This document shows, in pieces, positions 935 to 24,851 of a stretch of 64,000 nt of DNA (positions are counted from its first letter, which is position 1; every line of letters begins with the position of its first letter). This DNA is from Saccharicrinis aurantiacus (GTDB lineage Bacteria; Bacteroidota; Bacteroidia; Bacteroidales; Marinilabiliaceae), in NCBI RefSeq assembly GCF_001660705.2, contig NZ_LYBV02000038.1:62001-126000 (forward strand), read 5' to 3'. The position numbers and the translations under genes were made by a program. The notes under the pieces are model-generated. The model did no database searches. It was not told the DNA's origin and saw only the letters and a program-made list of their open reading frames with translations.

Positions 935-2602
935 ATGAACAAACAATTACAATTAGTAATGGCAATGGCATTATTGTTACTTTCAGTAAATACTAATGCG
1001 CAATATTTGCAATCAGATTATTATGGATTTGAAGATGCAGATATTAATGGAGATGGATCAAACTTAGCTTTTGGATGGTGGATTACGGCTGATGCTAATA
1101 ACCATATGATACAAAGTAATGAGTTTGCATCAGAAGGTACTTATAGTTTAAAAATTGGGTCAGATGATTATTCGCTTAATGCAGATAAGGAGTGGCGTGC
1201 TGACTGCGGTGCTACAGCAAAAATAGGCTCAGAACCAAGTGTAACAATTCCAGGAGATTATGTGTTATCTTTCAAGGTTTATATACCATCTGGAGACAAT
1301 ACCATTGTAGATAAAATAAAAACTATTTATTCTGACCCTAAGGATAATTATGATGATGGTGTTACAAATGTATGGGCGCAAACGCAATGGGATTTATCAA
1401 GTGTTACTGTTCGTGATGCTTGGGTTACGCTTAGAGCAACTATAAATATACCAACAGTAGGTACAAAAGCAGAAAAACCAAAGCAGATACAGCTTCGTGT
1501 CTTAGGAGATTATCGTCCAAATTCAGGAGCAGGTTATATATATATTGATGATATAAAACTTGAAGATCCAATTGACACTGATAATCCTGATTTTATTATG
1601 GATTACTCTTATTTTGGTTTTGAGTATGGGCCAGATTCTTGGTGGATTAATGAAAAACACAGAACTCATGCAATGCTAAGTACTGATGAAGTAGCTACTG
1701 GAGCTTATGCTTTGGAGGTGATTGCAGATCCTGACTTTGCAGAAGATACAAAATTGCCTGTCTCTTCAACTTCAGGAAAAGGAGGTTACTTTAAGGTAAT
1801 TAGCGGGTCTTATTATGCTGCATCTTTAAAAGTATTTGTAGAGAGTAATAAAACGTATTTTAGCGAATTCTTAACCAACGTGAAAGCAGCCTCTGGATCT
1901 GGTTATCAAACTATAAAGTGGGAAGTGCCTAGTGATATAGCAAGAGATGAGTGGGTTGAGTTAACACAGTTGGTGTACTATAATCCTGATGATGTAGTAG
2001 CTGGTGAGCCTGTTTTAACAGAAATGGCTATGACATTTAATATACCTAACGTAGTTGGTACAAATGTAGGCAGTATGTATATAGATGATATTTCGTTTGT
2101 GAAAACAGAGGCTCACCCTGTAACCTTTACTTTGGTAAGAAACGACAATGGTAATCCTGTATCAGGAGCGTCTGTGTCTATTAATAATCAAAACTACATA
2201 ACCGATAATCAGGGTATGTGCACAACAGATGCGCTTGAAGTAGGAGAGTATTCTTATACAGCTACAAAGAATGGGTTTTATGATGCTACATCAACCATAA
2301 CAGTTTCTGATGCCAGCACTGATTTTACTGTACCATTAACTGCTGATGATGCTACAATGGTAGATGGAAACGAGGATTTTGATTATAAAATATATCCTAA
2401 TCCTGCAAGCGCATTAATTAATGTAGCTTCGCCTGTAGGAAGTACAATTACTATATATTCTATTTCGGGTAATAAAATTAAAGTTTTGACTAATAGTTCA
2501 AGCTTAACTACAATTAATGTAAGCGATATGGCCAAAGGTTTATACATTGTTGAAATTGTAAGTAATGAAACTAAAGTGATTGAAAAAGTACAGATAAAAT
2601 AG
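935..2602 (+). CDS. T9SS-exported carbohydrate-binding-like protein
   Basis: A 555-residue secreted protein. The N-terminus is a signal peptide ending in NTNAQ. Two related beta-sandwich domains follow (about residues 25-215 and 225-390); each begins with a 'YYGFE/YFGFE' strand and ends in 'YIYIDDIKLED' or 'SMYIDDISFVK', the pattern of CBM-like jelly rolls that cap glycan-active proteins. A PEGA/carboxypeptidase-regulatory-like domain (about 395-470, GASVSINNQNY) and a type A T9SS sorting domain (YPNPASALINV ... GLYIVEIVS) end the protein. No catalytic motif is visible, so a glycan- or surface-binding role is inferred. It follows a related T9SS gene and is monocistronic, being bounded by terminators on both sides. 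Confidence 0.85.
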   Translation: MNKQLQLVMAMALLLLSVNTNAQYLQSDYYGFEDADINGDGSNLAFGWWITADANNHMIQSNEFASEGTYSLKIGSDDYSLNADKEWRADCGATAKIGSEPSVTIPGDYVLSFKVYIPSGDNTIVDKIKTIYSDPKDNYDDGVTNVWAQTQWDLSSVTVRDAWVTLRATINIPTVGTKAEKPKQIQLRVLGDYRPNSGAGYIYIDDIKLEDPIDTDNPDFIMDYSYFGFEYGPDSWWINEKHRTHAMLSTDEVATGAYALEVIADPDFAEDTKLPVSSTSGKGGYFKVISGSYYAASLKVFVESNKTYFSEFLTNVKAASGSGYQTIKWEVPSDIARDEWVELTQLVYYNPDDVVAGEPVLTEMAMTFNIPNVVGTNVGSMYIDDISFVKTEAHPVTFTLVRNDNGNPVSGASVSINNQNYITDNQGMCTTDALEVGEYSYTATKNGFYDATSTITVSDASTDFTVPLTADDATMVDGNEDFDYKIYPNPASALINVASPVGSTITIYSISGNKIKVLTNSSSLTTINVSDMAKGLYIVEIVSNETKVIEKVQIK

Positions 2603-9624: not shown

Positions 9625-10725
9625 ATGGATTATATTGTTTCAGCCCGAAAATACCGTCCTTCTACATTTGTTTCAGTAGTAGGACAACAAAACATAACAA
9701 CCACATTAAAAAATGCGATAATAGGAAGTCAGTTAGCACATGCATATCTATTTTGTGGTCCGCGAGGTGTTGGAAAAACCACTTGTGCTCGTATTTTTGC
9801 TAAAACCATCAACTGTTCTAATATTACAGATGAACACGAAGCCTGTAATGAGTGTGAGTCGTGTATCTCGTTTAATGAAAATAGGTCTTACAATATTCAT
9901 GAGCTTGATGGAGCCTCTAATAACTCAGTAGAAGATATTCGTAGCTTAATTGATAAAGTACGTGTTCCTCCTCAAATAGGAACATATAGTGTATATATAA
10001 TCGATGAGGTTCATATGTTATCTCAGGCAGCATTTAATGCGTTTCTTAAAACCTTAGAAGAGCCACCAAAGCATGCTATTTTTATTTTAGCTACAACTGA
10101 GAAACACAAAATACTACCTACGATTTTATCGCGATGTCAGATTTACGATTTTAATAGAATCACTATTGAAGATGCTGTAGGGCATTTAAAATATGTTGCT
10201 AAAAGTGAATCTGCTGAAATAGAAGAGGAGGGATTAACAGTTATTGCTCAAAAGGCAGATGGTGCCATGCGTGACGCTCTATCTATTTTTGATCAGATCA
10301 TTGCCTTTTCAGGGAAGTCGGTAAGCTATCAACAAGTTATTGATAATTTAAATGTATTAGATTACGATTTCTATTTTAGATTGATTGATGCCTGTTTACA
10401 AGAGAATACATCCGATGTGTTGTTACTCTTCGATGAAATATTGAAACGAGGTTTTGATGCCCATCACTTTATATCTGGCTTAAATTCTCACATAAGAGAT
10501 GTGCTAGTTTGTAAAGATCCGGCCACAATACAATTATTGGATGTTGGTACTAAAACCAAAGAACGATATGGCGAGCAGGCCAACAAGTGTGATGTGAATT
10601 TTTTAATGGATGCATTAGAAATAGTAAATGCATGCGACTTACAATATAGGGTAGCAAAAAATAAGAGGTTACATGTTGAGTTCTCCCTCTTAAAAGTTGC
10701 CCGGATATTAACTGAAAAAAAGTAA
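9625..10725 (+). CDS. dnaX: DNA polymerase III gamma (short DnaX form)
   Basis: The zero-frame product is 366 residues: the complete AAA+ clamp-loader part of DnaX. Walker A GPRGVGKTT begins at residue 45, the zinc-binding cysteines follow (CNECESC), Walker B is YIIDEVHML, sensor 1 is ILATTEKH and the arginine-finger region is LSRC. Domain III continues to 'HVEFSLLKVARILTEKK', where the frame stops at TAA. This is where E. coli gamma also lacks the tau C-terminus. The stop codon directly follows the heptamer A-AAA-AAG (10716-10722), and the reading frame one base back stays open for 209 more codons that look like the normal Bacteroidota DnaX C-terminus. Either programmed frameshifting yields both forms, or one A was lost from a homopolymer. 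Confidence 0.92.
   Translation: MDYIVSARKYRPSTFVSVVGQQNITTTLKNAIIGSQLAHAYLFCGPRGVGKTTCARIFAKTINCSNITDEHEACNECESCISFNENRSYNIHELDGASNNSVEDIRSLIDKVRVPPQIGTYSVYIIDEVHMLSQAAFNAFLKTLEEPPKHAIFILATTEKHKILPTILSRCQIYDFNRITIEDAVGHLKYVAKSESAEIEEEGLTVIAQKADGAMRDALSIFDQIIAFSGKSVSYQQVIDNLNVLDYDFYFRLIDACLQENTSDVLLLFDEILKRGFDAHHFISGLNSHIRDVLVCKDPATIQLLDVGTKTKERYGEQANKCDVNFLMDALEIVNACDLQYRVAKNKRLHVEFSLLKVARILTEKK
10716..10722 (+). promoter_or_regulatory. Candidate -1 frameshift site A-AAA-AAG in dnaX
   Basis: The last zero-frame codons of gamma are GAA AAA AAG followed at once by TAA. A-AAA-AAG in this phase is the slippery heptamer known from E. coli dnaX. Slipping one base back continues as GTA AAG AAA AAG GCT into the tau extension with no stop. 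Downstream pairing candidates are modest: CGGTT (10748-10752) with AACCG (10781-10785), and a 6-bp GCGA-loop hairpin at 10799-10814. Confidence 0.6.
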
Positions 10726-11351
10726 AGAAAAAGGCTGAGTTAAAACGCGGTTCCGGAACAAAGCAAGCCCCAAAGGTTGCAACCGGTACTCAAGCCACAG
10801 GTGTGCGAACACCTGCTAAGCCCGCAGTAAAAGCAAATAAACCAGAAGTAACACGTCAACCATTAAAAACCATTTCATTAAAGGCGGCCTTAAGCAATAA
10901 TCCGCCTGCCCCTAATCCGCAGGTAAATCCTGAGAAAAGTAAGCAGGTTATAACCAGTAAGTTGTTTGTTGATCCTAATTGGAATACTGCTTTTAATCAG
11001 GACCAATTACGCGATGTTTGGTTGAAATTTGGTAGAGGCATAGAACAGAAAAATCCTAGGTTTGCTAGTATTATAGCTGTGCATGTTCCAAATATTATCG
11101 AAGGGAATAATATTGAGTTGAGTTTAAAAAATGTAACTCAAGAAAACGAAATAAAAACCAATAAGGGCTTGATATTGCAGCACCTTAGGCATCATTTACA
11201 AAATGCCAATGTGCAATTAGAAACAAAGTTGGTATTAGATAATAGTAATGATGGAAAAGCATTTACAGCAGCAGATAAAGCAAAAGTAATGCTAAAGAAA
11301 AACCCAATGTTACTCGAGTTAACAAAGAAGTTTAATCTTGATGTTGAGTAA
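10722..11351 (+). CDS. dnaX: DnaX tau-specific C-terminal extension (-1 frame)
   Basis: In the -1 frame relative to gamma, an uninterrupted 209-codon extension follows the slippery site. It has a Lys/Ala/Pro-rich linker (to about 10960), then 'LRDVWLKFGRGIEQKNPRFA' and a C-terminal globular end 'AKVMLKKNPMLLELTKKFNL' typical of full-length DnaX in this phylum. Joined to gamma it gives a 575-residue tau, a normal length for the family. There is no good start codon or separate promoter, so this is not an independent gene. Its intact, family-like sequence argues that it is still expressed. Tau would link the clamp loader to the polymerase core and the helicase. Confidence 0.85.
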   Translation, partial: VKKKAELKRGSGTKQAPKVATGTQATGVRTPAKPAVKANKPEVTRQPLKTISLKAALSNNPPAPNPQVNPEKSKQVITSKLFVDPNWNTAFNQDQLRDVWLKFGRGIEQKNPRFASIIAVHVPNIIEGNNIELSLKNVTQENEIKTNKGLILQHLRHHLQNANVQLETKLVLDNSNDGKAFTAADKAKVMLKKNPMLLELTKKFNLDVE

Positions 11352-11503: not shown

Positions 11504-13771
<2,268 letters not shown>

Positions 13772-15809: not shown

Positions 15810-18800
15810 ATGAGAAACAAAAATTACACATTTAATGTGTATAGGTTGTTGATTGTATGTACCTTGCTATTTGGAGCAGTACATAACAATTCCTATGCGC
15901 AAAATTTTAGCATTGATGCAAGTCAAAGCTCAGACCCTGCTGATTCCAAGCCGGATAATGACGATGATAATCGAGTTTATCAATACGTTGCAGGGGAAAC
16001 ACTAATTAAAGCTGTTTTAGAAAACTTTGTTGGCCTAGATAATGGAGATCCACTTTATCTTTATTATAATAAGAGCAATGATGCATCTGATTTAAATAAA
16101 GAACAAATCATTAATACTCAAAATTTCGATACAAATTGGTCATCACGTTCTTTAAACGGTTTGATTAATACGGTAGGAGAGTATTCTGTATTTGCTGGTC
16201 ACTTTTTAGGTCGTTTCGATAATTTAAGTGAATTGAATTATACGGATGATATAAATGATCTTGTTGGAGGTGAAAAGTTTGAAGGTTATGTGCTTGGTAG
16301 TGCAACAAGTACTTATACTTCTGGGCATATTCCAACATCATATAATAGCGTTAATTGTGACCCAAAGGCTCAATTAATAGTGACAATACCAGAAGGGGCT
16401 GAAGTTACTAGTGTAGATGTTAGCTATTCTATGACAGCTACTAATGGCGCTTATATGAGTGAGCAATATTCTAAGATTTCGTGTATCACTACAGGAGGTT
16501 TAAGCGAAAGTTCTTATTCTTCTGGAACAGGAAATAGTACAGGTACTTATTCTTACACTCGTTCGTTAGATATTGCTAATGGGGTTACAGCAGGTGGCTC
16601 TATTGTTTTTGAAATGGATGCATATAGAACCTGGGATTCAAATTCTGATACTGGAGGATGTGGAACTTCATTTAATAAGGTTGATAATGGAACTTGGACA
16701 ATAACAGTAAACTATAGAGAAGCAGTTGTTGATTTCCCTATATCATTTACTAAAAGTGGTAACCGTTACCTAACTACTAATGCTTTTGCATTAAATGCTG
16801 AAATAGAAGGAGATGTAAATTTAGTTGTTGATTTTGATCTGCAAAATTCACAAACTTATCCTCTTGTGGTTGAGTATTCAACAAACGGAGGTAGTTCTTT
16901 TACCGCTTTAGAGTATAATAATGGTACTGAAGATGTAAGCGAAATATTCCCAACATCAAACTTCCCTGATGCATTTGAACTACCAGCTGCAGCTTTAAAA
17001 TCAGCAACATTGTTTCGTGTACGTCAGGTCGATGCATCTGCTCTAACGCCTAATAGTAATTCTTTTACAATAAATTCTATGTCAATTGTAAAAGGAGAGG
17101 CTATTCAAGCAATTTACACGCAAAAATTAGGCGATTTTGAAATTGTATCAGAACATGTTAATACTGATCCAGTACCGTCCGTTAAAAGTATTTCTGCTGT
17201 AAATAACAGTGTTAAATACCCTGGAGAAGAGGTAGAATTCCAAATGGAAATTGAAAATATTGATGATTTTAATGGTTTATCTTTATTTGTAAAAGGGCCT
17301 TTAAGTGCATACCAAAAAGTAGTACCTTCTTCTACTGATTTAGCAAATGATCAATTGAATTTTAAGTACGTACTACCAAGTAACATTGAAATGTATTACG
17401 GTCAGGGAATGACAATTGATGCAATGTTAGTTGAGGGTGACGAAATTGTTGAAGGTTCTAACGGATACGATAATATTATTACTTACACAGAAATGTTCTT
17501 TGATGCGGAAAACTTAATGGGTTCTAATTCAATTGCTGGTAACGATATTGATTTTACCTTATCAGGTACAAGACAATATACAACTCTACCTATTGAGATT
17601 ACTAACGCAAGTAATGCCATATTATCTGCAACAATAACACGTTTAAACGAAGCAGTACCTACTACAGGTAGTGATATTGTTATTGAGTATACCACAAATG
17701 GTACTACCTGGTTACAACTCGGTGATAACATAGCCTTAGGTGGAGATGATGGTGTTGGCTTATCAGGTAAAAGTTTCGAGTTTAGTCTTGATGAGAGTAT
17801 TGTTTCTGAAATAACACAATTCCGTGCCCGTCAGATAACGGATAATAATCGTGAAGATATTAACACATGGCAGTTAAGAAATTTCCATTTGTTTATTTCT
17901 GGTAGAGGGGGGAATATTATTGAGAACCCTGTTTCTGCAGCTGTTTCGATTGCTTCTCCAACTATGACTGTTGAGTTAAAAGACAATAGCAATGAGCTTA
18001 TTTATTCTGGTGATGAAGTAACATTTACTATTAAGGATGTAGACTCTGACTTTGTATTGCCTGACTATGCGTATATTGAAGTTACTTACACAAGTTACGA
18101 TGATAATAGTAATGTTGTTGATAATAGGTTCTTACAAACTTTAGATGAGTTAAAGGACGGTGATTTTGATGTAAAGATCCCATTTGATAACGGAGGGTTT
18201 AAAAACTTATTTGTAAGTGTTGTGGCAGACGGATTTTCTAATAAGGCATCTGCACCGTTTACTGTTCAGTCTCCTTCGGTTGAAATTACATCTGTTTCTA
18301 ATGATCTTGTTGATAATGATACTGAATTTAATGTTGCAGGCAAAAACATTGAGGTAGCATTTAAATTAGATGGTAATGTTGGTAGCGATATCGCTTATTT
18401 ATCATTAGAGTATTTTGATGGTTCTGAGTGGATGAGTATTGCGCAACAAGAGCTTACTTCTGGAACAACAGGTACAATAGCAGGTGAATTACCAGTTGCT
18501 TATTTTGGTGATGTTTCTAGTATAAGAGTAGCATTATTACCAAAAGAGTGTGAGGATAGTTTTACTTGTTATTCATACGAAGATCAAACTTCGCATTTTC
18601 GTGATGATGAATACAGGTGGTACGATTTTTCATCGGCACTACCAGGCTCAAAGTATTTAACTGATGTTACAGTAATTACAGAAATAGAAACTGAGAGTTT
18701 TGATAATGTTTATCAGTATAGTTCTGATTGGGAAGTAATTTCAACAAATCCAATTGTTTCTAGCAATGTTTATCAATCATCCGTAATTAATTTTAATGAT

Positions 18801-21800
18801 TATATCGCTGTTCCTGAAGATTTATTAGGTACTAGTGGTAAATTAGGAATTACTTATGATGCAGATGTTAATCTACGCAAGTTAAGAGTAATTACTCCTT
18901 ACCAAGGAAAAGTTATATCTGCAGCAGAAGAAATTAATGTTGCTTATCCAACAGTTTCACTTTCTGATATTAATGAGTTTTATGGCTCACAGTTTTATTC
19001 AGCCCAAGAAATGGAGTTTCAATACTCTACCTTTGCTATAGAAGAGGGCGACGCTAAGTTTGCTATCTATCTTGAGCAAGGTTCTGAGTATATTATGTTA
19101 GATATTAATTCTAGCGTTGGTTTAGTAAATCGAATAGTAACAATGCCTACAAGCGCGGCTTTAACAGAGGCAGGTTTTGATCTGAATAGCAAATTTGATG
19201 TTCAAATTGTTGCTTTTGATCCAGCTGATGAAGAGGCTATAATCTCAGATATTGACAAAACGTTTGTAACAAGTGATTTTACAGGATATGGATATACCAT
19301 TAATTCTGATGGATATGATTTTTATTTCTCTAAAGAAGGACAGCGTTCTATTGTAATAGTTGAGAAACTTGAAAATTTAGCTGATTATAATGAAACAGTT
19401 ACTTTATCTTTTGATTATTACGCAAGCATCCAATATCCAACAGAGAGCACCTTACCAAAGGTTCAAATTTCAAGTGATAATGGAGAAACTTATACAAGTA
19501 TAGAGATTCCTGAATCAGAATATGCTTCATTGGCTTGTCTTGATGCTTCAGGAACACACTCTTACGAAGTAGAGATACCTGTAGAGTATCTATCTGAAGG
19601 TAATTATATACGTTTTATACAAGATGTAGTAGCAGGAGCTGATATTAATACTTGGAGAGTGAGTAATGTACACCTTTCTGGAATTAATAATCTATTGGAT
19701 TATGTACTTCGTTTACCTGGAGAGCGCGAAATTAATTACTTCGAGAATGATGAGTATGCATCATATATCAACTTTGATGCTTACCAAATGTCGGTAACTA
19801 GCTTCGATTATGATAATGAAAATAGCTTTTTACCAGAGGTTCATGAAGGGGAAACAATTACATTAGATTGGAAACCAGTTTATGACGAAGAAGGTGAGTT
19901 AGTACAAGGTATTGAGTGGCCAGCAAACACAATGTTTGAGTTCATGTTACCATGTAACAATGACGACGGCTATCATACTGTAACAGTTGACGCTGCAACA
20001 CAAGAGTTTGATTTTACTTTAGCAGATTCAGTAGATGTTACTACAGGGCTTTATAATATTAAAGTTAAAGCTACTATTGTAGATGAAGAAGGAGAGGTAC
20101 TTTATCAATATCCTTCTGAAGGGGCTTCATATTCGCATGTTAATATATTTACACGTGAGTGGGCAGATATGCAATTGTTATTTACTAACGAAACTACACC
20201 AACCTTACTTCGTTTAAATGCTGAACAATTAACAAGTACTGATTTCTATTTAGCAGATACAGCTGTAGTTAAATACGAATTACATGGTGAGTGGACTGAG
20301 GATATTCAAATGGCAGGTGTACTTGAGTTGTTTGACGCGTCAGATGATTTAATTGAAAGACAAGTGCTTGAAATAGCTGATGAACTAATTGGAGATTCAA
20401 TAGCTGTTAAGATACCTAATTCGGTAGAAGAAGCTAATCGTTATGAATTAAAACTATACCCATATATTGGCGATGCTATCGAGTTTGGAACTACTATAAA
20501 TATTGAAAATGATGAGCTAATTGTTGAAGGAGGTATTGATAATTCTTATTGGTACATGAATGCAGAAGGTAACAGATCTGTTACAACACCTTCATATGAT
20601 TTATTCGGTAAGAATAATATGACATTGTCTTTTGTATATGCAACAAACTCTATTACTGAAAACCCAGCAACCTTACCTAGGTTAGAAGTTTCAATTGATG
20701 GAGAAAACTTTACGTTCTTAGAAATAAGTGAAGATCAATCTCAATTTGGAAATCTAGGTTACCTTCCTGAATCAGAAAACTGGAGAACATTTACTGTAGA
20801 TGTACCTGAGGAATATTTGTCTTCTGCTACTCAGTTCCGTATTGCTCAAGAAACAAGTTTTGATGCAGACGAAGAAGTGTGGGCTGTATATAATTTTAAA
20901 TATACTTACGGTACTTATAATATTGTAGAACCAAGTATTAATGTAAATGATGACGCTGAGGAAGAATTTAGATCTCAGGAAGTTAATATTCTTCAACCAT
21001 TAGTTTCTGATTATACTTTCGAACTTGTGCGCGATGAAGATGGTTTTGAACCGGTATTATTCCCAACTGATGAAGCACAGTTTACTTTTACAACAGAGGC
21101 TGTAAACTATCCTGAAGGTACAGAGTTCTCTTTTTATATCGAAGATTATATCGAAGAGCCATTTATGATCGCTTCAGCGGCCGATACTGTATTTACATTT
21201 ACATTGCCTAACGATATTGAGCGTGGCACTTACGATGTGTACGTACATGTTGCAAATGGTGAGTATGTATACGAGGAGTTATTGGATGAAGATGGTGATT
21301 TAAGATCATATGCTGGTTCAATTAATGTTTACAACCCAGTTCTTAAAACAGTAGTTAATGAAGAGGAAGTAATCTATGCAGGTAACACAGTGAGTGTATC
21401 TGGTGTTTACGAAAACTCTGATCGCACGCCAAATGCCGATTATTACTATAACCTAGTATTAACAGATCAAATTGGTGATCAGTGGTTATTAGCTACTAAA
21501 CAAGGCAATGCTGAATTTAACAATGTTGTTATACCTACATTTGTTGGTGGTGCAAATCGTACATTCGAGATTGTAGTATCAATGAATAGTGCAGTTGGTG
21601 TTGTTGGCGAAAAATATGAGTCAATAGATGATAAAGTACTTAACAGTTCTGATGATTTTGAAGAGAGTAGAATTAATCTTCCAAATTATTCTGAAGGTAC
21701 ACGTGTTACATTAACTACTACAACAGAATTAGATTTAACAGATAAAGCTTTTGTTAAATTTGATATAGCAGCAACAGAATTAGCTGTTACTGATAATCAA

Positions 21801-24800
21801 AAAGTAGTTCTTGAGTATTCTATTGATGGTGGTTATACCTACGTTGCAATGGCTTCTTATCCTGATGAGCGTTTCGATGAAGAAAACATGAGTCAAGAAG
21901 AAAGAATTGCTATTCCATCTGAAGCTAATATCGAAGGTGCTCTTCTTCGTTGGAGAATTGAAGAGTTTAAAGAGTCATTTAACTTATCTAACATTGCGCT
22001 TGAGTATATGTCTACTGATTATACATACGCTCCAGTTATTTCTCAATCTGTTAGTGAGTTTGTATCATCTCAAAAAATTAACATTGAGGATGTGGTATAT
22101 ACACCAGGTTGTGAAGGTGGTGTACTTGATTTAACTTATAGTATTAAAGGTAAATTTGGAGCAGATGCAGAGCTTAAGTTAAAATCTACAAATGGTAGTT
22201 ACTATGAAGATCTAGAAGGTGAAGATATTGTATGGACTAGTATTACAGAAGGTTCAGGTATTATCACGCTTCATTTAAATACAGTTGATTATTTCAGCGA
22301 GAGCGAGAATCAGACATTTGAATTTGATGTTAAAGATGAAACTGCTTCTGAATTATATGAAGAATCAGATTATGAGGTGTCTATATCAGGTGAGTCAAGT
22401 CGTATGACTGCAAGCTTATATAAAGTAGCTGAAATTAATAATGTTACTTTAAGCGCAGATAATCGTAATTGCGTTGAGGCTGATCGTATTGCAACTATTT
22501 CAGGGGTGCAAGAGCACTTTATTTATCAGCTACGTAATTATGTAACTGGTGAGCTTGTTGGAGATGCTGTTGTTGTAGATACAGAGGATGAAGACCTTAT
22601 GGATAAAGAAACGTTCCCTTATTATAATGGATCTTCTTTAGATATTAACTTAGGTCTACTTACAGAAGAGTTAACTGTAGAGGTTCAAGTTACTTCTCAA
22701 GCTAACGATCATTCATTTACATGTGTTACTGAAATACCTAATGAACAAGCTAAATTTTATATAAATCCAATTCCGGCTATTCACTATACCGATGGTACAA
22801 ATAGTGTAAAACAGCCTATTACGGAAGCTCAATTATTTGAAGTATGCGAAGGTACTTATCCTTATACTTTCTACTTTGGTTATTATAAAGATGGTGCTTG
22901 GAATTCGGTTTCTACAAAATGGTTACGTAATGGTACTACGGTAGCAACTTCATCTTACTACAATGATTATTCAACTAATGGTAATTATACTATTGAGTAT
23001 GACTTAAATGAAAACTGTAGTTTACTAGAACCAGTAACATTCGCTATCGAAATATACGAAGTTCCAGAACAACCTACTGTTACAATGCCTGAAGAAGAGT
23101 TTACTTGTGAAACTGAAACAGTAACATTAACTGCAACAGAAGGGTACACATTCTATCGTTGGTACAAAGATGGTTCACAGCAGTATACTTATAACCAAAC
23201 TCTTGAAGTTAATGAATCAGGAGTTTATCAAGTTGAAGTATCTAATGTTGCATTTGACAAAGAATGTGTAAGTGCTATATCAACTCCTGTAGCTATTGAT
23301 TTACATACTTTTAATGATATTTCATTGTCTGCAACTTACATTTCTTTATGTGGCGATGATAATGTGGGCGAGTTAACAATGTATAACACTCAGGCAGAAG
23401 TTACTTACCTACTTAAGGATGAGGTTTCAAATGAGGTATTTGCCACTGTGGTTGGAACAGGTTCGACTGTAACATTTACTACAGAAGCCTTTGAGAAAGA
23501 CATGCAACAACTATATGTTGAAGCTGTTTGGGATAACGACGAAAACTGTACTAAAATATTTGAAGAATTACTAGTTACGGTTGAGTTTACTCCTGAGTAT
23601 GTGATGTTTGTAAATCATGAAACTGTAAATTCTTATACTGAGGTAACTGAGGATATGCAAGTTTGTTATGGTGCTAGCTTAAAAGTTTCAACAGCAGATG
23701 AGCAAAGTAACGGAACGAACATCACTTGGCACAAAGATGGATATACTTATTCTAGTTCGTATTATATTAATGAAGTTCCTGAAGGAATCTATAAAGCACG
23801 CTTTAGCAATGGTAATTGTGAGTATGATATCGCTACAGTTACAGTATTGCCAAAAGTTGAGAAACCTATGTTAACTGCTGATGGTGAGTCTCAATTCTGT
23901 GAAGGAGAAGGTGAGTATACTTTAATTGCTCCAGAAGATTTTGCTGGATATATTTGGTATAGAAACAGTACTTCAATGACAGATTATCCTTCAGATGTAA
24001 ATACACTATCGCTAACCAATGGTGGAGGTTCGTACTATGTAAAAGTAAAGAACGAAGCTGGTTGTGTAAGTCCTATGTCTGATGCTGTTAGTGTTGAGAT
24101 TTATTCTAAACCATCAGTTCCAGAGGCATCTCAAATTTGTGATCCAGAAATGGTTAAAGTTTCTGTGTCGAGTGTAACAACAAATGCAATTTATTCAATC
24201 ATTAACTACGAAACTGGTGAGACTTTAAGTAACTCATATGTTGCAACAAGTAGCAGTAGTTTCACAATGCAGCTTTCTTCTGAAATATCGGGTAGAGTAA
24301 CTGCTGCAATAGTTGCGCAAAAGGTTGGAGAAGAAGCTTGTTCTGTAGAGTCATTACCATTTGAAGTTAGTCCAAGTATGATAGAAATTGTTGCGTACGG
24401 TAATGTACTTGAAGTTGAAACAACTATTTCAGGATCGTACAGTTACGTTTGGTTCCGCAACGGAAATCGTATGAACAATCAATCAGGAAGTTCAATTACT
24501 ATTTACGATGATGCTCAATATTCAGTTATTGCAACACCAAATAGTTCAGATGGATGTAAATTAGAAGCTACATTTGGTGAATTAGCAACTACTGAACCTG
24601 ATACTGAGATCGAAGCATCAATTTATCCTAATCCAGCCACTAATTTTGTAAATCTTAAGCTTGCTAATTATGAAGGCGATGTAAATGTGAAGATTTACGA
24701 TGTATCTGGTACTCTTTTCGGGTCATATACTTACGAGGCTGATGCTAGCTCTGATAAACAGATTGATTTAAGTAACGTTAGCAAAGGTTACTTTAACCTT

Positions 24801-24851
24801 GAGGTTACAGCTGGTGACAAAACTATTGTTGAGCGTTTTATTAAAAACTAA
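15810..24851 (+). CDS. Giant modular T9SS surface protein, 3013 residues
   Basis: A 3013-residue secreted protein. The signal peptide region is followed by a mature N-terminus 'NFSIDASQSSDPADSKPDND'. Five copies of a jelly-roll-like module start near residues 308, 580, 1158, 1576 and 1955. Each has a 'G.R.+T' entry strand, a central 'VEYSTNGGSSF / VEVSIDGENF' strand and an 'FR.RQ...INTWQL.N' exit, resembling reelin-type or MAM-like sandwiches. Ig-like domains with 'GEEVEF' or 'GDEVTF' strands lie between them. The last ~900 residues are Cys-containing Ig/PKD-like repeats ('FYRWYKDGSQ', 'YIWYRNST', 'YVWFRNGN'). The C-terminus is a type A T9SS sorting domain (YPNPATNFVNLKL ... KGYFNLEV). A role as adhesin or cell-surface stalk is inferred; no enzyme motif was seen. 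Confidence 0.85.
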   Translation: MRNKNYTFNVYRLLIVCTLLFGAVHNNSYAQNFSIDASQSSDPADSKPDNDDDNRVYQYVAGETLIKAVLENFVGLDNGDPLYLYYNKSNDASDLNKEQIINTQNFDTNWSSRSLNGLINTVGEYSVFAGHFLGRFDNLSELNYTDDINDLVGGEKFEGYVLGSATSTYTSGHIPTSYNSVNCDPKAQLIVTIPEGAEVTSVDVSYSMTATNGAYMSEQYSKISCITTGGLSESSYSSGTGNSTGTYSYTRSLDIANGVTAGGSIVFEMDAYRTWDSNSDTGGCGTSFNKVDNGTWTITVNYREAVVDFPISFTKSGNRYLTTNAFALNAEIEGDVNLVVDFDLQNSQTYPLVVEYSTNGGSSFTALEYNNGTEDVSEIFPTSNFPDAFELPAAALKSATLFRVRQVDASALTPNSNSFTINSMSIVKGEAIQAIYTQKLGDFEIVSEHVNTDPVPSVKSISAVNNSVKYPGEEVEFQMEIENIDDFNGLSLFVKGPLSAYQKVVPSSTDLANDQLNFKYVLPSNIEMYYGQGMTIDAMLVEGDEIVEGSNGYDNIITYTEMFFDAENLMGSNSIAGNDIDFTLSGTRQYTTLPIEITNASNAILSATITRLNEAVPTTGSDIVIEYTTNGTTWLQLGDNIALGGDDGVGLSGKSFEFSLDESIVSEITQFRARQITDNNREDINTWQLRNFHLFISGRGGNIIENPVSAAVSIASPTMTVELKDNSNELIYSGDEVTFTIKDVDSDFVLPDYAYIEVTYTSYDDNSNVVDNRFLQTLDELKDGDFDVKIPFDNGGFKNLFVSVVADGFSNKASAPFTVQSPSVEITSVSNDLVDNDTEFNVAGKNIEVAFKLDGNVGSDIAYLSLEYFDGSEWMSIAQQELTSGTTGTIAGELPVAYFGDVSSIRVALLPKECEDSFTCYSYEDQTSHFRDDEYRWYDFSSALPGSKYLTDVTVITEIETESFDNVYQYSSDWEVISTNPIVSSNVYQSSVINFNDYIAVPEDLLGTSGKLGITYDADVNLRKLRVITPYQGKVISAAEEINVAYPTVSLSDINEFYGSQFYSAQEMEFQYSTFAIEEGDAKFAIYLEQGSEYIMLDINSSVGLVNRIVTMPTSAALTEAGFDLNSKFDVQIVAFDPADEEAIISDIDKTFVTSDFTGYGYTINSDGYDFYFSKEGQRSIVIVEKLENLADYNETVTLSFDYYASIQYPTESTLPKVQISSDNGETYTSIEIPESEYASLACLDASGTHSYEVEIPVEYLSEGNYIRFIQDVVAGADINTWRVSNVHLSGINNLLDYVLRLPGEREINYFENDEYASYINFDAYQMSVTSFDYDNENSFLPEVHEGETITLDWKPVYDEEGELVQGIEWPANTMFEFMLPCNNDDGYHTVTVDAATQEFDFTLADSVDVTTGLYNIKVKATIVDEEGEVLYQYPSEGASYSHVNIFTREWADMQLLFTNETTPTLLRLNAEQLTSTDFYLADTAVVKYELHGEWTEDIQMAGVLELFDASDDLIERQVLEIADELIGDSIAVKIPNSVEEANRYELKLYPYIGDAIEFGTTINIENDELIVEGGIDNSYWYMNAEGNRSVTTPSYDLFGKNNMTLSFVYATNSITENPATLPRLEVSIDGENFTFLEISEDQSQFGNLGYLPESENWRTFTVDVPEEYLSSATQFRIAQETSFDADEEVWAVYNFKYTYGTYNIVEPSINVNDDAEEEFRSQEVNILQPLVSDYTFELVRDEDGFEPVLFPTDEAQFTFTTEAVNYPEGTEFSFYIEDYIEEPFMIASAADTVFTFTLPNDIERGTYDVYVHVANGEYVYEELLDEDGDLRSYAGSINVYNPVLKTVVNEEEVIYAGNTVSVSGVYENSDRTPNADYYYNLVLTDQIGDQWLLATKQGNAEFNNVVIPTFVGGANRTFEIVVSMNSAVGVVGEKYESIDDKVLNSSDDFEESRINLPNYSEGTRVTLTTTTELDLTDKAFVKFDIAATELAVTDNQKVVLEYSIDGGYTYVAMASYPDERFDEENMSQEERIAIPSEANIEGALLRWRIEEFKESFNLSNIALEYMSTDYTYAPVISQSVSEFVSSQKINIEDVVYTPGCEGGVLDLTYSIKGKFGADAELKLKSTNGSYYEDLEGEDIVWTSITEGSGIITLHLNTVDYFSESENQTFEFDVKDETASELYEESDYEVSISGESSRMTASLYKVAEINNVTLSADNRNCVEADRIATISGVQEHFIYQLRNYVTGELVGDAVVVDTEDEDLMDKETFPYYNGSSLDINLGLLTEELTVEVQVTSQANDHSFTCVTEIPNEQAKFYINPIPAIHYTDGTNSVKQPITEAQLFEVCEGTYPYTFYFGYYKDGAWNSVSTKWLRNGTTVATSSYYNDYSTNGNYTIEYDLNENCSLLEPVTFAIEIYEVPEQPTVTMPEEEFTCETETVTLTATEGYTFYRWYKDGSQQYTYNQTLEVNESGVYQVEVSNVAFDKECVSAISTPVAIDLHTFNDISLSATYISLCGDDNVGELTMYNTQAEVTYLLKDEVSNEVFATVVGTGSTVTFTTEAFEKDMQQLYVEAVWDNDENCTKIFEELLVTVEFTPEYVMFVNHETVNSYTEVTEDMQVCYGASLKVSTADEQSNGTNITWHKDGYTYSSSYYINEVPEGIYKARFSNGNCEYDIATVTVLPKVEKPMLTADGESQFCEGEGEYTLIAPEDFAGYIWYRNSTSMTDYPSDVNTLSLTNGGGSYYVKVKNEAGCVSPMSDAVSVEIYSKPSVPEASQICDPEMVKVSVSSVTTNAIYSIINYETGETLSNSYVATSSSSFTMQLSSEISGRVTAAIVAQKVGEEACSVESLPFEVSPSMIEIVAYGNVLEVETTISGSYSYVWFRNGNRMNNQSGSSITIYDDAQYSVIATPNSSDGCKLEATFGELATTEPDTEIEASIYPNPATNFVNLKLANYEGDVNVKIYDVSGTLFGSYTYEADASSDKQIDLSNVSKGYFNLEVTAGDKTIVERFIKN

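Follow-up and report, generated by a model that had tools for sequence, protein, structure and literature searches.

In Escherichia coli, dnaX carries the slippery heptamer A_AAA_AAG, one of the most efficient -1 motifs of this bacterium (PMC4066793), followed by a 3′ stem, and the product of the ribosomal frameshift is the shorter protein, gamma; the sole tRNA-Lys, which reads both AAA and AAG, has been linked to this frameshifting, and a second tRNA-Lys has been linked to slippage in Thermus (PMC5009743). In Thermus thermophilus the same two products are obtained from one gene by transcriptional slippage at a tract of nine A, tau being the unshifted product (PMC1088944, PMC5009743). A stem loop that is said to help RNA polymerase slip is located 5′ of its site (PMC5009743). 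Two-ORF dnaX genes, in which recoding into the -1 frame is needed for tau, were reported in the GeneTack survey (17 genes from 12 genera; Antonov et al. 2013, PMC3711429); 12 of them had a poly-A tract, nine with 10 A and the others with 9, 8 and 7, and transcriptional slippage was the favoured explanation. The nine A10 species may include Bacteroidetes, in which case the A10 state of the relatives described below has already been recorded there. Chlorobium phaeobacteroides dnaX, which in that survey has reversed polarity and 7 A, was later put forward as a candidate for ribosomal frameshifting and said to have stimulators similar to those of E. coli dnaX, with reference to unpublished work (Atkins et al. 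2016, PMC5009743). A dnaX of reversed polarity is, in this sense, already published, both in 2013 (PMC3711429) and in 2016 (PMC5009743).

The dnaX gene analyzed here is located in a window of 64,000 nucleotides, i.e., the whole stretch of DNA under study. As in E. coli, the window's genus has A_AAA_AAG in the frameshift phase and a 3′ stem, and a sole tRNA-Lys for AAA and AAG may be a further likeness (PMC5009743), but the polarity is reversed, so that the product of frameshifting would be tau instead of gamma, no SD-like 5′ element is conserved, the spacer is longer, and the 3′ element is larger and has two helices. When compared with T. thermophilus, tau is the shifted instead of the unshifted product, and the long tract (A9 in T. 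thermophilus, A10 in the window's relatives) is missing in the genus (PMC1088944, PMC5009743). The RNA element is located 3′ of the site, unlike the 5′ stem loop connected with polymerase slippage (PMC5009743). The GeneTack two-ORF genes are alike in the -1 recoding needed for tau, but the dnaX section of that paper mentions no 3′ structure (PMC3711429), whereas the window's genus combines an A6/A7 tract with a covarying 3′ RNA. The C. phaeobacteroides gene, compared by its description only, shares the reversed polarity, but belongs to the Chlorobi and not to the Bacteroidota.

The split dnaX gene and its conservation

The features of the gene in the window are as follows:

9625..10725, + strand: dnaX zero-frame ORF, gamma form, with the AAA+ clamp-loader domains I-III, 366 aa
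9625, + strand: zero-frame start ATG (direct sequence reading)
10715-10721, + strand: run of seven A that holds the heptamer (direct sequence reading)
10716..10722, + strand: slippery heptamer A_AAA_AAG in zero-frame phase, present in 9/9 genomes of the genus
10723..10725, + strand: zero-frame stop TAA immediately 3′ of the heptamer, TAA or TAG in 9/9 genomes of the genus
10722..11351, + strand: tau-specific part in the -1 frame, a linker and then the DnaX C-terminal region, 209 codons plus stop
11349-11351, + strand: stop of the -1 frame

The gamma ORF ends with ACT GAA AAA AAG TAA by direct reading, and its product matched the DnaX equivalog models PRK14971 (6e-214) and dnaX_nterm (2e-131). 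For the -1 part alone the match to PRK14971 (gamma/tau; 614 positions) extended from 432 to 613, at 2e-21, and a Pfam search of this part found no model at E 0.1. The fused product would be a tau of about 575 aa if both frames were joined. DnaX domain III had one match in the window's genome, namely the gene described here, and an Rfam search of the whole window at gathering cut-offs gave 0 matches. An earlier note on this DNA had placed the heptamer in this phase and had assigned to the -1 frame 209 codons and a DnaX C-terminus, and direct reading and the PRK14971 match bear out both points; its view that the polarity is the reverse of that of E. coli, with the unshifted frame leading to gamma and the shifted one potentially to tau, is supported by the frames read. 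The next gene downstream (11534-13771) encodes a monomeric isocitrate dehydrogenase, and further on an ORF of 3013 aa (15810-24851) carries Reelin subrepeat B matches and a secretion-system C-terminal sorting domain.

The heptamer and the split frame, whose conservation in close relatives the earlier note had left to an alignment, were both found in the nine genomes of the genus: in all of them the zero frame carries AAAAAAG followed directly by TAR, with tau in a -1 frame of 209-213 codons. The eight sister species read CAA AGA AAA AAG TAR, i.e., a tract of A3-G-A6-G with the same heptamer, and the window reads GAA AAA AAG TAA. The base 5′ of the heptamer is thus a G in 8/9 genomes and the run there is only A6, A7 being present in the window only (in loci L006 and L010 the run at the shift site is A6, and the value of 7 belongs to a neighbouring run). 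The mean dN/dS of the -1 part was 0.23 (36 genome pairs from the nine genomes), with 0.54 in the linker and 0.17 over the final 130 aligned codon columns, and the other two frames across the tau part contained 9-26 stops per genome; the value for gamma was 0.025, over the pairs with computable dS and with synonymous sites near saturation. As judged from these rates, the tau-specific -1 part is under protein-level constraint.

The null hypothesis of the earlier note was that one A had been lost from an A8 run. A sequencing or assembly error, or a recent decay, in a dnaX that truly has one frame with A8 could be suspected, because the site is a homopolymer in a genome of 69 contigs. However, the other eight species of the genus share the split with different bases 5′ of the heptamer, and a miscalled homopolymer is not expected at differently built tracts; one of these sister genomes was assembled in 4 contigs, and the dN/dS of the tau part also speaks against decay. 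The eight sister genomes refute the loss of one A, and the probability that we leave to error or decay is negligible.

The 3′ RNA element and other components of the candidate signal

With the nine genus sequences, RNAalifold predicted a stem 1 of 9 bp, which begins at a distance of 10 nt from the heptamer; the large loop that it closes contains an inner helix of 4 bp, and a 7-bp hairpin follows after one more base. A spacer of 10 nt is long for a bacterial frameshift signal. In the window the element is composed of:

10723..10732, + strand: A-rich spacer between the heptamer and stem 1, 10 nt
10733..10740, + strand: stem 1, 5′ arm GGCTGAGT, paired with 10788-10791 and 10793-10796, with A10792 as a one-base bulge
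10788..10796, + strand: stem 1, 3′ arm ACTC-a-AGCC
10748..10756, + strand: conserved loop motif CGGTTCCGG
10753-10756 with 10783-10786: inner helix, option 1, CCGG with CCGG
10748-10752 with 10781-10785: inner helix, option 2, CGGTT with AACCG
10798..10815, + strand: hairpin 2, CAGGTGT-gcga-ACACCTG, just past stem 1

The two options for the inner helix are mutually exclusive, and the two-sided changes favour neither; two sister species have their hairpin 2 shifted by one position. The loop letters CGGTTC were found in 9/9 genus genomes, and the serine codon in the loop is TCC in 8/9, a codon that accounts for 12% of the serine codons in these genes. Column identity near the element is only about 30% among the nine sequences.

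On a plain MAFFT alignment the RNAalifold energy was -21.4 kcal/mol, with two-sided changes in 9 of the 20 pairs and a small covariation term (-0.31 of -21.38); the nine sequences served both to derive the structure and to test it. In this alignment 87.2% of the cells were paired, a value that fell to 25-45% when the partners were slid by 1-3 columns. The covariation score was 0.322, versus 0.167 +/- 0.024 in shuffled alignments (0/500 as high), 9 pairs were changed on both sides versus 5.3 in the shuffles (2/500 as high), and 18 further pair types were present versus 14.8 (12/500 as high). Fitting the alignment to the model gave 90.0% paired cells and a score of 0.357, and such fitting leans towards the structure. 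The element was the best folding window of dnaX, since 0/148 non-overlapping windows reached its energy. Elsewhere in dnaX, the conserved fold that ranked best was located near the gene start, at about 9645-9755, with -16.0 kcal/mol and 65% identical columns, and it may reflect only the conserved protein.

Between +6 and +106 the mean folding z was -2.72 in the nine genus loci versus -0.78 in 70 other split-type loci. No fold signal was observed in the genus with short windows (mean z of -0.23 at +6..+66 and 0.04 at +20..+90, versus -0.72 and -0.41 in the 70 others), as expected with 60 or 70 nt if stem 1 closes a large loop, so that the element needs about 95 nt. When synonymous codons were shuffled the mean z was -1.94 in the nine genomes, i.e., the fold is only moderately stable: shuffles as low numbered 0, 0, 2 and 5 of 300 in four genomes, and 21-51 of 300 in five, the window having 21. 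The folding z of the window's 108-nt stretch was -1.83.

At the same place, five groups of A10 relatives gave 0.0 to -3.0 kcal/mol and no conserved structure, energies no lower than the average of their own genes; these groups comprised 37 of the 49 family genes that are split and belong to other genera, the remaining 12 being in no group, and three loci were counted in two groups. A covariance model, R1, was built from the nine genus dnaX genes, which it matches by construction. In the 71 family genomes, under stricter filters, R1 returned these nine genes and 6 other matches, none of them at dnaX (E 0.02-0.9), one of the six being a second match in a genus genome. When R1 was run on the 57 dnaX loci from the rest of the family (56 genomes plus one twin locus), it gave 23 weak matches up to E 10, the best at 0.094. 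The match begins at the A tract in six of the 57 loci; in the four of these alignments that were examined the helices were skipped or unpaired, so that the match is carried by AAAAAAGUA and A-rich letters. No independent member of the element was found with R1 among these 57 loci. In one A10 relative (L120, G080; locus positions 1372-1504, minus strand) the sequence UUCCGG...CCGG is located downstream of the tract without stem 1, and it could be a matter of chance or a forerunner of the element. The alignments and searches indicate that a covarying RNA element is present just downstream of the heptamer and that, among the groups examined, it is conserved only in the window's genus.

An SD-like stimulator (AGGA, GGAG or GAGG) within 25 nt upstream was present in 1/9 genus genomes, which was not that of the window, and none was conserved. 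Its absence from 8/9 genomes is in line with the report that Bacteroidia ribosomes do not recognise SD sequences (PMC9976891). With a strict pattern for tRNA-Lys, 21/21 of the matches listed in the nine genus genomes were UUU, an assignment based on the pattern; a relaxed CUU pattern gave 40 matches versus 20 with a reversed control pattern, and ARAGORN, applied to 30 of these 40 loci, found no tRNA on any of them. The A10 genera of the family include some with and some without CUU matches, among the matches listed. Loss of tRNA-Lys(CUU) is therefore insufficient as the cause of the switch, other A10 genera also having UUU only among those matches, and its apparent absence is permissive without explaining the switch.

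dnaX states in the family and in the Bacteroidota

A dnaX match was obtained in 65 of the 71 family genomes; 58 of these had a split gene that continues into tau in the -1 frame, 2 (G017 and G077) had a fused gene, and 5 were uncallable, four of which lie at contig ends or have a gamma ending at A10 there. In the fifth, L020 (G020), the gene is split at A10 and a stop follows in the -1 frame after 5 codons, owing to either a second break or an error of assembly. Outside the window's genus 49 of 56 family dnaX genes were split, the site being A10 in 48 and A11 in one. The dnaX stretch of Saccharicrinis sp. UBA6048 (Marinilabiliaceae) is identical to that of genome G067. In genus g10 of the family, the gene is fused in L019 (G017) and L118 (G077) and split in L012 (G032) and L126 (G078), all four with A10, i.e., the polarity flips and the tract stays. 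A dnaX of this family could easily be mistaken for a truncated or broken gene in annotation.

Among 159 distinct Bacteroidota loci, which were picked by similarity to gamma (L001, L115 and L138 were dropped beforehand as repeats of L002, L086 and L056), 73 were fused, 71 were split with tau in the -1 frame, 5 were split with tau in the +1 frame and 10 were unclear. The +1 loci comprise three with a long A run ahead of tau (L102, L147 of G060 and L149 of G055) and two without an A run (L092 and L152). A10 was the commonest run in both main classes (39/73 fused and 58/71 split -1 loci), 9-11 A were found at the split in 62 of the 71 -1 loci, and A6/A7 with the heptamer kept was found, among these 71, only in the window's genus. 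Runs of A9 or longer start in all three codon phases in fused genes and in two in split -1 genes, as expected if the RNA polymerase, which is blind to codons, slips. The zero-frame A_AAA_AAG is also present in 47 of the 62 split -1 genes with such runs, and ribosomal slippage in those 47 genes is possible. In a quick tree of 82 gamma sequences, from which L146 was omitted because it is short, the A6/A7 rows formed one side of a branch (SH-aLRT 99) among A9+ rows, and the fused, -1 and +1 states required at least 8 changes.

Probable ribosomal frameshifting and the alternatives

These results point to programmed -1 ribosomal frameshifting, of reversed polarity, as the source of two dnaX products in the window's genus, in place of an ancestral transcriptional-slippage site; we assign to this reading a probability of roughly 0.8. 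In the normal reading, ribosomes would stop at the TAA or TAG right after AAA AAG and release gamma. The folded RNA downstream would hold up ribosomes at the heptamer, where two tRNA-Lys(UUU) would re-pair from AAA AAG to AAA AAA, one base back, and the shifted ribosomes would continue in the -1 frame to yield tau. The putative signal would consist of the heptamer and the 3′ element (stem 1 with its large loop, and then hairpin 2), without a conserved SD-like stimulator. Since the in-phase heptamer is already present in 47 of the 62 long-run split relatives, such a gene that gained the 3′ structure could then afford the loss of its long tract. We infer from sequence the occurrence and level of frameshifting, its stimulation by the RNA, the slippage in A10 genes and the order of the switch. 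Somewhat favoured, at lower confidence, is the wider proposal that within one family an essential gene exchanged one level of recoding for another, slippage of RNA polymerase at A10 giving way to a -1 shift of the ribosome at A_AAA_AAG with the two products unchanged, that the passage was via an A10-then-G tract holding both signals, and that the stimulator is of a new type, in which a large-loop stem carrying the conserved loop motif CGGUUCCGG stands beside a second hairpin and acts on ribosomes that make no use of Shine-Dalgarno pairing.

The conserved split would not, by itself, separate ribosomal frameshifting from transcriptional slippage, in which RNA polymerase would add an A in part of the mRNAs and so fuse the frames. 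Slippage agrees with the 9-11 A at the split and with the varied phases of the long runs in the Bacteroidota loci, and it was proposed for two-ORF dnaX with A10 and, arguably, with shorter tracts, the 7-A case being grouped with slippage by Antonov et al. (PMC3711429). Nevertheless, it depends on tract length, and the run of about nine or more A that the family relatives have is not found in the genus clade, with only six A in a row in eight members and seven in one. In E. coli a detectable slippage effect of RNA polymerase requires a run of more than 7 A or T (earlier reports summarised in PMC6260861), and the genus tract is at or below this length, the A7 of the window being borderline. Furthermore, the conserved RNA is located 3′ of the site, and would still be untranscribed at the time of a polymerase slip, and it was not found in the A10 relatives examined. 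The shortened tract and the 3′ structure thus speak for ribosomal frameshifting over transcriptional slippage, as far as sequences can tell, and we consider the latter unlikely in this genus. They also lend support to the claim of the earlier note that -1 slippage is needed for tau, the shift itself being a presumed event.

The tau-specific part could also be a separate protein, initiated anew after termination of gamma, and the ORF list does contain a GTG start at 10803. However, the nine genomes have the first ATG, GTG or TTG of their -1 part at codons 27, 14, 14, 34, 102, 64, 117, 66 and 66, and none is conserved; moreover, a tau C-terminus lacking the AAA+ part and the collar would not enter the clamp loader, which makes separate proteins highly improbable. 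If the genus made gamma only, tau would be dispensable and the RNA element would have another job, e.g., in mRNA stability. Such a situation is very unlikely, albeit slightly less so: the -1 part is open and constrained in 9/9 genomes despite high synonymous divergence, tau is the link between the polymerase and the clamp loader, and a distance of 10 nt separates the element from a zero-frame heptamer upstream.

For programmed ribosomal frameshifting, no paper on dnaX in this group was found among the matches listed in the open-licence PMC literature. The tract loss in a single clade with the heptamer kept, the covarying SD-independent 3′ signal and the switch within one family look new. In Flavobacterium johnsoniae, which does not use Shine-Dalgarno pairing, the prfB frameshift was reported to be inefficient (PMC12421855), and the dnaX element would be a candidate frameshift signal evolved for ribosomes of this kind. 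Until now both solutions have been compared between distant bacteria, e.g., Thermus and E. coli, and the family would offer a natural side-by-side series, A10 without structure versus A6/A7 with structure, for the replacement of transcriptional by translational recoding in an essential gene.
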